Source of the DNA: Bradyrhizobium quebecense
GTDB lineage: Bacteria; Pseudomonadota; Alphaproteobacteria; Rhizobiales; Xanthobacteraceae
Length of the DNA: 64,000 nucleotides
Direction of reading: 5' to 3'
Assembly (NCBI RefSeq): GCF_013373795.3
Contig: NZ_CP088022.1
Coordinates: 7,564,001 to 7,628,000 of the forward strand
Part shown: positions 57,539 to 60,189 of the stretch, in pieces
Layout: every line of letters starts with the position of its first letter
How positions within the stretch are numbered: the first letter of the stretch is position 1
Program-made: the position numbers and the translations under genes
Notes under the pieces: model-generated
Seen by the model: the letters and a program-made list of their open reading frames with translations, nothing else
Database searches by the model: none
Told to the model about the DNA's origin: nothing

Positions 57539-57820
57539 TTACGCTGCCAAGAGCCGGATCTGGAACTTGCTGCCGGTTGCCTTGGCAAATCGCAACAACG
57601 TCTTGGTACTTGGAAGCGTCTGGCCGCTTTCGAGCCGGGCGATGGTTGATTGGCTAGTGCCCATCTTGGCTGCTAGCTCGGACTGCGACAGTCCCGCACG
57701 CTGACGCGCCTTGAGCAACTCGGCAGCGATTTCGAACTCAGGCGCGAGCGCATCGTATTCCGCCCGGACCCTCGGATTGGCCAACAGGCGCGCCTTGAGC
57801 TTTTCGAACGGTATCGTCAT
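57539..57820 (-). CDS. XRE-family antitoxin (HigA-like)
   Basis: A 93-residue cytoplasmic DNA-binding antitoxin. The helix-turn-helix is at about 40-80 (RAGLSQSELAAKMGTSQSTI, ARLESGQTLPSTKTLLRFAK). The N-terminus (MTIPFEKLKARLLANPRVRA) is the usual toxin-binding start for this group. All motifs are intact. Its start overlaps the end of the broken toxin gene by four bases, keeping the toxin-first order of higBA loci. Since the toxin is disrupted, it may survive as a simple repressor. Confidence 0.85.
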   Translation of the reverse strand: MTIPFEKLKARLLANPRVRAEYDALAPEFEIAAELLKARQRAGLSQSELAAKMGTSQSTIARLESGQTLPSTKTLLRFAKATGSKFQIRLLAA

Positions 57821-58067
57821 GTGACTTCCTTTGCCCGCCGCAGCGCCAACTCAACCTCACCCGGTGGCGTCTTCTGGGACTTCTTCACGAACGCGCGGAC
57901 GACCACAACGCGCCGACCAAATGCTTCACATGCGGTTCACCCAGACTTTCCAGCCCAGCGGCAGCAATGCGCTCTGAAAGGCGGATGAAACGCGCCTGCA
58001 TGTCGGCTGGTAGCGCCGCGATATCTTCCACGACGACCTCGTTGAGGATTTCGACGCTCCAGGACAT
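57817..58067 (-). pseudogene. Disrupted RelE/HigB-type toxin
   Basis: The start MSWSVEILNEVVVEDIAALP and the segment GEPHVKHL match HigB/RelE-like toxins of about 105-115 residues. After residue 50 the frame goes to VGALWSSARS and stops (60 residues). In the next frame the family C-terminus continues as RRVVVVRAFVKKSQKTPPGE and ALRRAKEVT, ending in the ATGA overlap with the antitoxin gene. About 25-28 central codons, including the basic catalytic stretch seen in relatives (as I recall, K-L-W-E-M-R), are missing, with a net frameshift. The toxin should be inactive. Confidence 0.85.
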
Positions 58068-58134: not shown

Positions 58135-59865
58135 TCACCCCGCACTCATTCCCTGCGCGCCGCCGAGCAGCTTGGCGTTGAGCCGGCCGCCGTCGAACAG
58201 CATTTCACTGACCGCGCCGTCGAGGTCGGAGGCGGTGACGTGCCCGCCGCCATTGCCAGCGATGCTGGCCTGGGCGAGACGGCGCATCAGCTCCTTGATG
58301 AAGGCGGCGCTGACGCCTTCGGTGCGTCGTACGGCCTCGTCGATGACGGGCTGTTCGAGCGGCAGGCCCTTGCCATAGAGTCGGATCAGCTTGCCGCGCC
58401 CGGTCTCGTCGGGCAGCGGCACCTCGATCGCCTGGTCGATGCGGCCGGGCCGGCCGGCCAGCGCACTCTCGAGCTCTTCGGGGCGGTTGGTGGTCAGCAG
58501 GAACAGGATGTCGCAATCCTCCTTCAGGCCGTCCATCTCGTTGAGCAGCTTGTTGAGCAGGGATTCCTCGCACGGCCCGCCCATGTCCTCGCGGTCGCGT
58601 GCGATCAGGTCGACATCCTCGATCACGACCATGGTCGGCTGCAGCAGGCGGGCCAGGTTCATATAAGCGCCGAGCAGGCCGACCTGCTCGGCGGTGATGA
58701 TCAGCGTGGTGTGATCAGGCAGGTTGGTGGCGAGATAACGAATGGTGTGGGTCTTGCCGGTGCCGGGCGGGCCGTAGAGCAGGATGCCCTTGCGGGTCGA
58801 CTGCCCGAGCTTGCGCAGCAGATCGCGGCTTTCGACAAAGCCGAGCACGTTGCGGTCGAGCAGCCGCAGTGTCCGCTCCGGCAGGATCACGTCATCGCGT
58901 GCAACTGTCGGCAGGCGATGCACGGTCACGCCGCGCGAACGGCCGCGATAGTCCGAACCACCCTCCAGCGAGAGTATCTTGCCGCGGTAGGATCGCGCGG
59001 CGTGGACAGCGGCTTCCAGCGCGGCAAAGGTCGGCTGTACGAAGGCATCGCCGGCCGTGCCCGCCGGCAAAGCGATCTCGATCCGAACGGCGGGTTCGCG
59101 GTCATATTCCCGATGATAGGTCAGCAGCACGGCGTAGCGTAGCGTGCCGGACCGGCACAGCCACAAACCGTTGACGAGACATTTCACCGGCTCGGGCTCG
59201 CCGATATCGACGTCCTGGTACTGAGGAGGTGCGATCGCCGGCGCATTGCGGCTGTCCTTCATCAAGGACGCAAATCCAATCGTCTCGTAGCGGTATTCCT
59301 CATGGATCCCGAAGAAGTGGATCGGGTCGGTGAGCAGTCTGTCGATCGCGACCTGAACGTCGGCACGCATGTGGCCTGGAAACTGGCGTGCCCGCGTCAC
59401 GATCAGGTTGCGCGACACGCCGGCGAAATGCCAGTCGAGCGCAACAAAGGCGTATCGAAACTCGTGGCTCGGCAATTCTTCCGAGCTGCGACGCGCGGCG
59501 AGCAGGCAGTCCGTACATAGCGAGGCCGTCGTGCCGGAGAGAATAATCTCCGTCACGGCCTTCGGGGCTTCGCACAGATCGCAGGGGCGGCTGGCATCGG
59601 CGGACTCGCTCGTGATCATCAACGGGTGGCCGTTGGAGCGGATCAGCCACTTGGCGCTGTTGAACATTGCTCGAGCGACGGCGCCCGGATAGGGGCCGCA
59701 CGGAACAGCGCCCCTGGCCTCGATCAGTGCAGCGGTAGCGATGGCTTCCTGCTGGGATTTCCCGAATACCGTGCGCAGCAGGTCCTGCACGAACTCCAGC
59801 GGCGTCTCGCCGTCGTCGTGAATGAAGAGCTGGACCGGACCGTCATCGGCAAAGACGTCGTGCAT
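58135..59865 (-). CDS. ClpS-like domain, C4 zinc finger and AAA+ ATPase fusion protein
   Basis: A 576-residue cytosolic protein. Residues 10-88 resemble the N-degron adaptor ClpS (QLFIHDDGETPLEFVQDLL, GAVPCGPYPGAVARAM, SNGHPLMITSE), but the N-degron-binding histidine of ClpS is E49. Residues 92-125 form a ClpX-like C4 zinc finger: C95, C98, C117, C120 in CDLC and CTDC. A region at 130-320 is unassigned. The AAA+ module (about 325-560) has Walker A GPPGTGKT (365-372), Walker B VVIEDVD (413-419, with the usual D-E order reversed), sensor TTN (458-460) and arginine finger GRPGRID (471-477). The start at 59865 has GGAGG four bases upstream. No protease domain is present. Confidence 0.85.
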   Translation of the reverse strand: MHDVFADDGPVQLFIHDDGETPLEFVQDLLRTVFGKSQQEAIATAALIEARGAVPCGPYPGAVARAMFNSAKWLIRSNGHPLMITSESADASRPCDLCEAPKAVTEIILSGTTASLCTDCLLAARRSSEELPSHEFRYAFVALDWHFAGVSRNLIVTRARQFPGHMRADVQVAIDRLLTDPIHFFGIHEEYRYETIGFASLMKDSRNAPAIAPPQYQDVDIGEPEPVKCLVNGLWLCRSGTLRYAVLLTYHREYDREPAVRIEIALPAGTAGDAFVQPTFAALEAAVHAARSYRGKILSLEGGSDYRGRSRGVTVHRLPTVARDDVILPERTLRLLDRNVLGFVESRDLLRKLGQSTRKGILLYGPPGTGKTHTIRYLATNLPDHTTLIITAEQVGLLGAYMNLARLLQPTMVVIEDVDLIARDREDMGGPCEESLLNKLLNEMDGLKEDCDILFLLTTNRPEELESALAGRPGRIDQAIEVPLPDETGRGKLIRLYGKGLPLEQPVIDEAVRRTEGVSAAFIKELMRRLAQASIAGNGGGHVTASDLDGAVSEMLFDGGRLNAKLLGGAQGMSAG

Positions 59866-60189
59866 GAGGCCTCCGAAACGCAACTGAAACCATAAGAACA
59901 AAATAAGAACATCATGGCGGCGGCTGTGCGTCAAGCGAAAGATTATCCCGCCTCAGCCCTGGCGTGTGGCGCGCCGATCGGCCGGCTCGGCCCCGAACGC
60001 CCGCATGCGTAAACGCCGCTCAACACCTGTGACGATTGTGTTGCGGCAAATGCCAAGAGATGGTCGTCGCAGCAGCAAACTTCCGACACATCATCAAGGC
60101 GAAAAGGGGCGATCCGACATGGCGCGAGCGCGAGAGCAGAGTCCCCCCGGGGATCTGCGGTCGCGCAATTATTTTAATAAGAGGCCCTC
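59866..60189. promoter_or_regulatory. Divergent region between AAA+ fusion and MscS genes
   Basis: A 324-bp divergent intergenic region. Close to the AAA+ gene (59891-59911) the direct repeat ATAAGAACA occurs twice 3 bp apart, an AT-rich feature likely to be its promoter or a protein-binding site. TTATTTTAATAA lies at about 60170-60182 just before the channel gene. No coding sequence is supported. Confidence 0.5.

Follow-up and report, generated by a model that had tools for sequence, protein, structure and literature searches.

A protein in which a ClpS domain, a ClpX-type zinc finger, a middle domain and an AAA module follow one another is encoded at positions 58135..59865, on the minus strand, of a 64,000-nucleotide stretch of the Bradyrhizobium quebecense genome (contig NZ_CP088022.1, positions 7,564,001 to 7,628,000), which as a whole is called the window here. 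The frame starts with an ATG at 59865, ends with the stop codon 58135-58137 and encodes 576 residues (P0001); an alternative TTG start at 59934 would give 599 residues, but it is the ATG that has GGAGG ahead of it. The parts of the protein, all on the minus strand, are the ClpS domain (residues 11-88, 59602..59835; PF02617, PDB profile search and structure model), a C4 zinc finger of the ClpX type (C95-C120, 59506..59583; homologue alignment, PF06689 in a relative and a profile), an alpha/beta middle domain (residues ~132-316, 58918..59472; Pfam scan and structure model) and an AAA module with its small domain (residues ~346-558, 58192..58830; Pfam, structure model and structural comparison). 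Within the last, Walker A, GPPGTGKT, occupies residues 365-372 (58750..58773) and Walker B, MVVIED, residues 412-417 (58615..58632) with E-D replacing D-E, both read from the translated frame and the alignment of relatives. Pfam placed ClpS PF02617 at residues 11-85 with 38.6 bits (cut-off 23) and AAA at residues 361-484 with 72.7 bits, the Pfam scan covered the middle of the protein with no family, and no NCBIfam equivalog was above its own cut-off among the matches listed. A preliminary description of the locus, made from the letters alone, had proposed the order ClpS, C4 zinc finger and AAA in a single frame, with residues 10-88 ClpS-like and no protease domain in the protein, and Pfam, the profiles and the structure model agreed with this, the ClpS part being set at 11-88. 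This domain reading is confirmed as real and as more than a chance combination, because the homologues listed (at least 120; 120 listed of 7137 scored, many sharing AAA only) have 66-97% identity to the query across 86-100% of its length.

A LexA (SOS) box of the alphaproteobacterial form, GTTCTTATTTTGTTC, lies at 59896..59910 on the minus strand, 30 bp 5′ of the ATG. It was found by pattern search for GTTC-N7-GTTC, the direct repeat that excerpts of PMC3323433 give as bound by LexA in alphaproteobacteria. The best 80 of 362 homologous loci carried this box in 65 cases, 40-91 bp from the match start, with an expectation of 0.011 per locus computed from the same loci, box sites included. Spacer 7 accounted for these 65 loci, whereas other spacers from 3 to 14 occurred in 0-7 loci and three control arrangements of the half-sites in 0, 0 and 2 loci. 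The sites comprise 29 different 15-mers; their half-sites do not vary, being fixed by the search pattern, and conservation in most of the flanking columns is 32-72%. Among the finger-bearing loci (62 of the 80 by a simple finger pattern) the box was found in 60, against 5 of the 18 fingerless loci. It also stands 5′ of the same-genus copies L005, L006, L007, L034 and L010, the last a shortened frame without readers, and is absent from L008 and L011. A stricter pattern, chosen after seeing the sites of the family, matched 11 places in the 9.17-Mb source genome and none in the reversed control, and besides the window's gene these include dinB, a splB-like radical SAM gene and ssb; the promoters of recA and lexA are not among the 11. 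The names dinB and splB appear among the SOS genes of the alphaproteobacterial class in the excerpted PMC3323433. The loose pattern was rejected as genome-wide proof, with 216 sites against 184 in the control. With a conserved GTTC-N7-GTTC in the promoters of the window's gene and its relatives, the gene appears, as far as sequence can tell, to be under LexA control.

Two similar small proteins of the source genome (L198 and L202) are each encoded directly 3′ of a strict LexA box; the one scanned belongs to no Pfam family, and their genes are candidate unnamed SOS genes. On the opposite side, directly behind strict boxes, lie L201 and L204, similar small acidic proteins of ~70-80 residues, and L204, the member of that pair scanned, had no Pfam match.

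A profile of 20 relatives of the ClpS head gave ten best PDB matches that were all ClpS (E down to 2.6e-17), and the structure model orders this part as E11-16 H23-32 H38-51 E53-59 H61-77 E83-88 (E, strand; H, helix). Besides this gene the source genome holds two ordinary ClpS genes, and both keep NDD, H66 and K84 (E. coli ClpS numbering, used for all pocket positions). The window's protein has D, D and G at 34-36 and E at 66, leaving the alpha-amine pocket set N34/D35/H66 of ClpS adaptors incomplete (D, D, E); the loop HDDGE and the replacement by E49, which aligns with H66, of the histidine that holds the amine had both been read correctly in the preliminary description. Pocket positions were counted in 179 proteins of full architecture (ClpS, zinc finger, core). 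D35 is kept in 172 of them, T38 in 171 and L99 in 176, position 34 is N in 107 and D in 56, and M40 is variable, while position 66 is E in 89, D in 32 and H in 10. K84, the ClpA-docking lysine of ClpS, is K in none of the 179 and instead L, M, I, F, V or P. A head fused to its own motor would no longer need the docking lysine, and its loss fits a ClpS head tied in cis to the motor. Ordinary ClpS is described in excerpted literature as sending a free N-terminal extension into the ClpA pore; the structure model leaves 10 residues before strand 1, and a long free extension is absent. The likeness to ClpS adaptors thus lies in the domain family and the kept residues D35, T38 and L99, and the difference in fusion to a motor, the missing extension and the changed positions 66 and 84.

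It had further been concluded that the ligand is probably not a classical N-degron. The loss of the histidine stands, but the conclusion drawn from it is weakened by the H kept in 10 of the 179 and by the N-domain of human UBR1, for which excerpts of a review (PMC8346999), drawing on a homology model, give D263 at the H66 place in an otherwise conserved pocket. An acidic residue at this place therefore does not exclude N-degron binding. The N-domains of UBR1 and UBR2, eukaryotic N-recognins, resemble the window's head as ClpS-like domains held in cis in a large protein, with an acidic residue at the H66 place; unlike it, they belong to E3 ligases and not motors, and the sequence link is weak (UBR2 E 0.44). 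A further ClpS fusion, here to a protease, was met in L058 (2166-3665, minus strand), where a frame of 499 residues combines a part that by eye resembles a HEIGH membrane metalloprotease with a ClpS-like domain at the C terminus that retains NDD and H66.

For the zinc finger no Pfam match was among those listed for the window's own protein, a listing that took in 25 of 27 weak rows. In the relative P0173, PF06689 (ClpX C4) is above its cut-off (39.5 against 27), all 30 aligned homologues have C95, C98, C117 and C120, and a profile of eight relatives reached ClpX chains in the PDB at E 1.6e-14, so that the ClpX-like spacing pointed out earlier reflects kinship. The finger is homologous to the N-terminal zinc-binding domain of ClpX, in which the fingers pair up; unlike ClpX, the window's motor is not of the Hsp100/ClpX AAA type, and PF00004 alone passes among the matches listed.

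The motor was compared across 273 relatives of 430-620 residues. Walker A lies where it had been claimed, and the E-D order in Walker B is a family trait, with E416 and D417 each kept in 272 of 273; E-D Walker B is a feature of Bcs1, and the window's family is alike YjoB/Bcs1-like AAA proteins in this. The arginines of the second region of homology (SRH) are retained as R472 in 272 and R475 in 273 of 273, and an AAA domain with these arginines is shared with threading motors of the Cdc48/FtsH type. The earlier label Cdc48/FtsH-like holds in that Cdc48 and FtsH are nearest by sequence, but is weakened as a statement that the protein is an unfoldase. The longest structural match, of 354 residues, was Bacillus subtilis YjoB (PDB 7w42, 7w46) and spanned the middle domain and AAA, where rows matching AAA only reached ~250; its Z was level with the other AAA rows. 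Bcs1 was among the ten best Foldseek rows, with 437-487 columns. Between Walker A and Walker B, the stretch that carries pore loop 1 in threading motors is ~8 residues short relative to Cdc48 by structure model and alignment, and helix 392-407 comes directly after strand 386-390. Pore loop 1 of threading motors also holds an aromatic residue, and Y401 is kept in 271 of 273; the gap placement of the shortening differs between the two Cdc48 domains. Given the YjoB and Bcs1 matches and the short pore-loop-1 stretch, threading is not the default assumption, and the motor is probably not a plain Cdc48/FtsH unfoldase. By eye, against motifs as commonly known, the C terminus LLGGAQGMSAG has no HbYX tail and no ClpP-docking loop was seen.

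Neither structural relative is a full counterpart. YjoB is said to have chaperone activity; unlike the window's protein, its aligned chain is without ClpS or ClpX finger, and its stress switch is different. Bcs1, an AAA translocase moving the folded Rieske Fe-S protein according to excerpted literature, differs in having a transmembrane helix and in acting as a heptamer in the mitochondrial inner membrane, and is 16-20% identical. The AAA part also matches the anti-phage AAA protein IetA at 62-70 bits, far under the NCBIfam cut-off of 510, and no IetS-like partner was seen among the clustered neighbour genes, no profile search having been aimed at IetS.

Residues 1-300 matched 96 of 195 sampled Bradyrhizobium genomes (E 1e-10), a count that also takes in fragments and some copies, such as G035, that have no ClpS match; the family is conserved but patchy in the genus. 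In wider samples of the order (297 genomes) and the phylum (398 genomes), the clear members outside the genus among the matches listed were two, the full-length G247 (47%) and G087, which has the core alone, and the many weak matches were ordinary ClpS. The genome-contig scan returned the 362 relatives, the best 80 of which are mostly Bradyrhizobium, plus Mesorhizobium and a few metagenome bins. The 273 proteins of 430-620 residues, from 289 fetched, divide into the 179 of full architecture, 34 with finger and no ClpS, 56 of core only and 4 odd ones, and a tandem pair of C4 fingers was seen by eye in 5 proteins without ClpS. A Bradyrhizobium paralogue has ClpS directly on the core with no finger, as do 9 of 10 further stretches. 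The architectures found are thus core, finger-core, finger-finger-core, ClpS-finger-core and ClpS-core. A quick core tree of 46 rows required at least 4 changes for the presence of ClpS and 8 for that of the finger, with one fully supported core-only clade of 11 rows. Judged from these sequences, the readers are interchangeable, and the constant part is the ATPase core, the most conserved part of the protein. Neither a recurrent partner gene nor a recurring peptidase gene was found among the clustered neighbours of the homologous loci, and literature searches found no paper on this protein. One contig titled 'Frankia sp. RB7' (L112) holds a 66% identical copy with an alphaproteobacterial LexA box and is probably a mislabelled or contaminated Bradyrhizobium assembly.

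A sister branch lacks the LexA box, and the 15 boxless loci among the 80 are nine Bradyrhizobium ClpS-core copies, four Mesorhizobium loci, L134 and L140. The boxless contig L143 has nifN and fdxB within 8 kb, and in 4 of ten further stretches (L155-L158), which had partly been picked because nifK was already placed nearby, nifK, nifE, nifN and fdxB occur with the ClpS-core copy a few kb off; in G728 and G833 a long distance separates the copy from nifK. Plasmids gave 47 matching records, none covering more than 80% of the query, and of six stretches opened four had nif or fix genes and two had none. The copy adjoins fdxB in Mesorhizobium, lies between nifK and nifE in Paraburkholderia (annotated as two frames), is 5′ of fixABCX-nifA-nifB in Rhizobium leguminosarum and ~9 kb from fixLJ in Sinorhizobium numidicum. 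The window's copy is not nif-linked, the gene being at 7.62 Mb and nifK at 5.74 Mb, 1.9 Mb apart. As an observation in its own right, the same AAA core stands in or near nitrogen-fixation clusters of several genera in L148, L149, L151 and L155-L158. A NifA switch was rejected as shown for this sister branch, although TGT-N10-ACA occurs ~215 bp upstream in 9 of 9 closely related loci without the finger: the nine are near-copies, a strict sigma-54 pattern is absent, a loose one is on the wrong side, and the site is missing from L154, L158 and L159.

Absent from the preliminary description were the LexA box at 59896-59910, the interchangeability of the N-terminal modules, the missing docking lysine and the sister branch linked to nif. 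Established at the level of predicted parts are the ClpS head, the ClpX-type finger, the middle domain with AAA, an intact Walker A with the SRH arginines and a conserved LexA box in the promoter. These are best explained, with about even confidence, by a stand-alone, DNA-damage-inducible AAA+ remodelling chaperone that has its own substrate readers and no protease of its own. LexA would repress the gene and DNA damage would lift the repression, so that the protein is made; subunits would assemble as a ring through their AAA parts, and the zinc fingers, pairing as in ClpX, may hold the ClpS heads above it. The heads would recognise their clients through an exposed N terminus or a short motif akin to one. 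Movement of the middle domain and the AAA module, driven by ATP as it is in YjoB or Bcs1, would then remodel, hold or release the client rather than thread it stepwise, one residue after another, into an attached peptidase. A more specific version, tentative and in all its parts together rather unlikely, makes it a one-polypeptide SOS N-recognin whose acidified, UBR1-like pocket would read N termini that arise or are uncovered after DNA damage, for example on cleaved or displaced replication or repair proteins, to be remodelled by a protease-free ring of the YjoB/Bcs1 type, the sister branch having swapped the LexA switch for nitrogen-fixation control to serve nif.

That the ring instead unfolds ClpS-bound clients for a separate peptidase (ClpP, HslV or another), as a one-protein substitute for ClpS and ClpA in the SOS response, is unlikely. 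Both N-terminal modules do originate in Clp proteolysis, the AAA sequence is closest to unfoldases and R472 and R475 are retained, but the ~8-residue shortening at pore loop 1, with the helix straight after the strand, the lack of an HbYX tail or ClpP-docking loop and the absence of a recurring peptidase neighbour argue in the other direction. Somewhat more doubtful is a ClpS domain serving as a mere scaffold or docking part that reads no N termini, with the middle domain selecting substrates. The rarity of H66 and the variable M40 position suit such a role, as do the many relatives that have the same core and no ClpS and the L010 copy, which begins past the readers yet has the box; near-invariant D35, T38 and L99 do not, and UBR1, with D at the H66 place, is a working N-recognin according to the excerpted review.

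A protein that regulates the Clp machines of the same cell, its finger pairing with that of ClpX or its head competing with ordinary ClpS so that Clp specificity shifts in SOS, would make use of the homologous interaction modules and of the two ordinary ClpS in the genome. It is nevertheless very improbable, for the docking lysine is kept in none of the 179 and the ATPase core, the most conserved part, would be needless. Least probable of all is a chaperone that folds or assembles metal or Fe-S proteins, of which the SOS-controlled branch would be a redeployment: core or ClpS-core copies lie in or near nif/fix clusters of Bradyrhizobium, Mesorhizobium, Rhizobium, Sinorhizobium and Paraburkholderia, and Bcs1 moves a folded Fe-S protein, but the window's copy is remote from nifK and apparently under a different switch, two of the six plasmid stretches lack nif and fix genes, and genes of symbiosis plasmids often neighbour nif by origin.

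Adaptors and AAA+ motors are normally separate, and work on how ClpS passes on its cargo has used ClpA. The protein described here joins the reader to a different type of motor, and nature appears to have exchanged readers on a common core, which offers a natural experiment on modular substrate choice. The remodelling chaperone would be a candidate for a branch of the alphaproteobacterial SOS response that remodels proteins, and the database name 'ATP-dependent Clp protease adaptor ClpS' given to these proteins hides the motor.

Just downstream of the gene, on the same strand, lies a HigBA-like pair (57885-58067 and 57539-57820, minus strand). A toxin-antitoxin partnership with the window's protein was rejected, the XRE neighbour recurring in 6 loci only. 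The pair consists of an XRE antitoxin (HTH_3, 58.9 bits) and a Gp49-like toxin, which is probably truncated because it has only ~60 residues and is just below the Pfam cut-off. In Caulobacter, higBA is repressed by LexA according to excerpts of PMC13384398.
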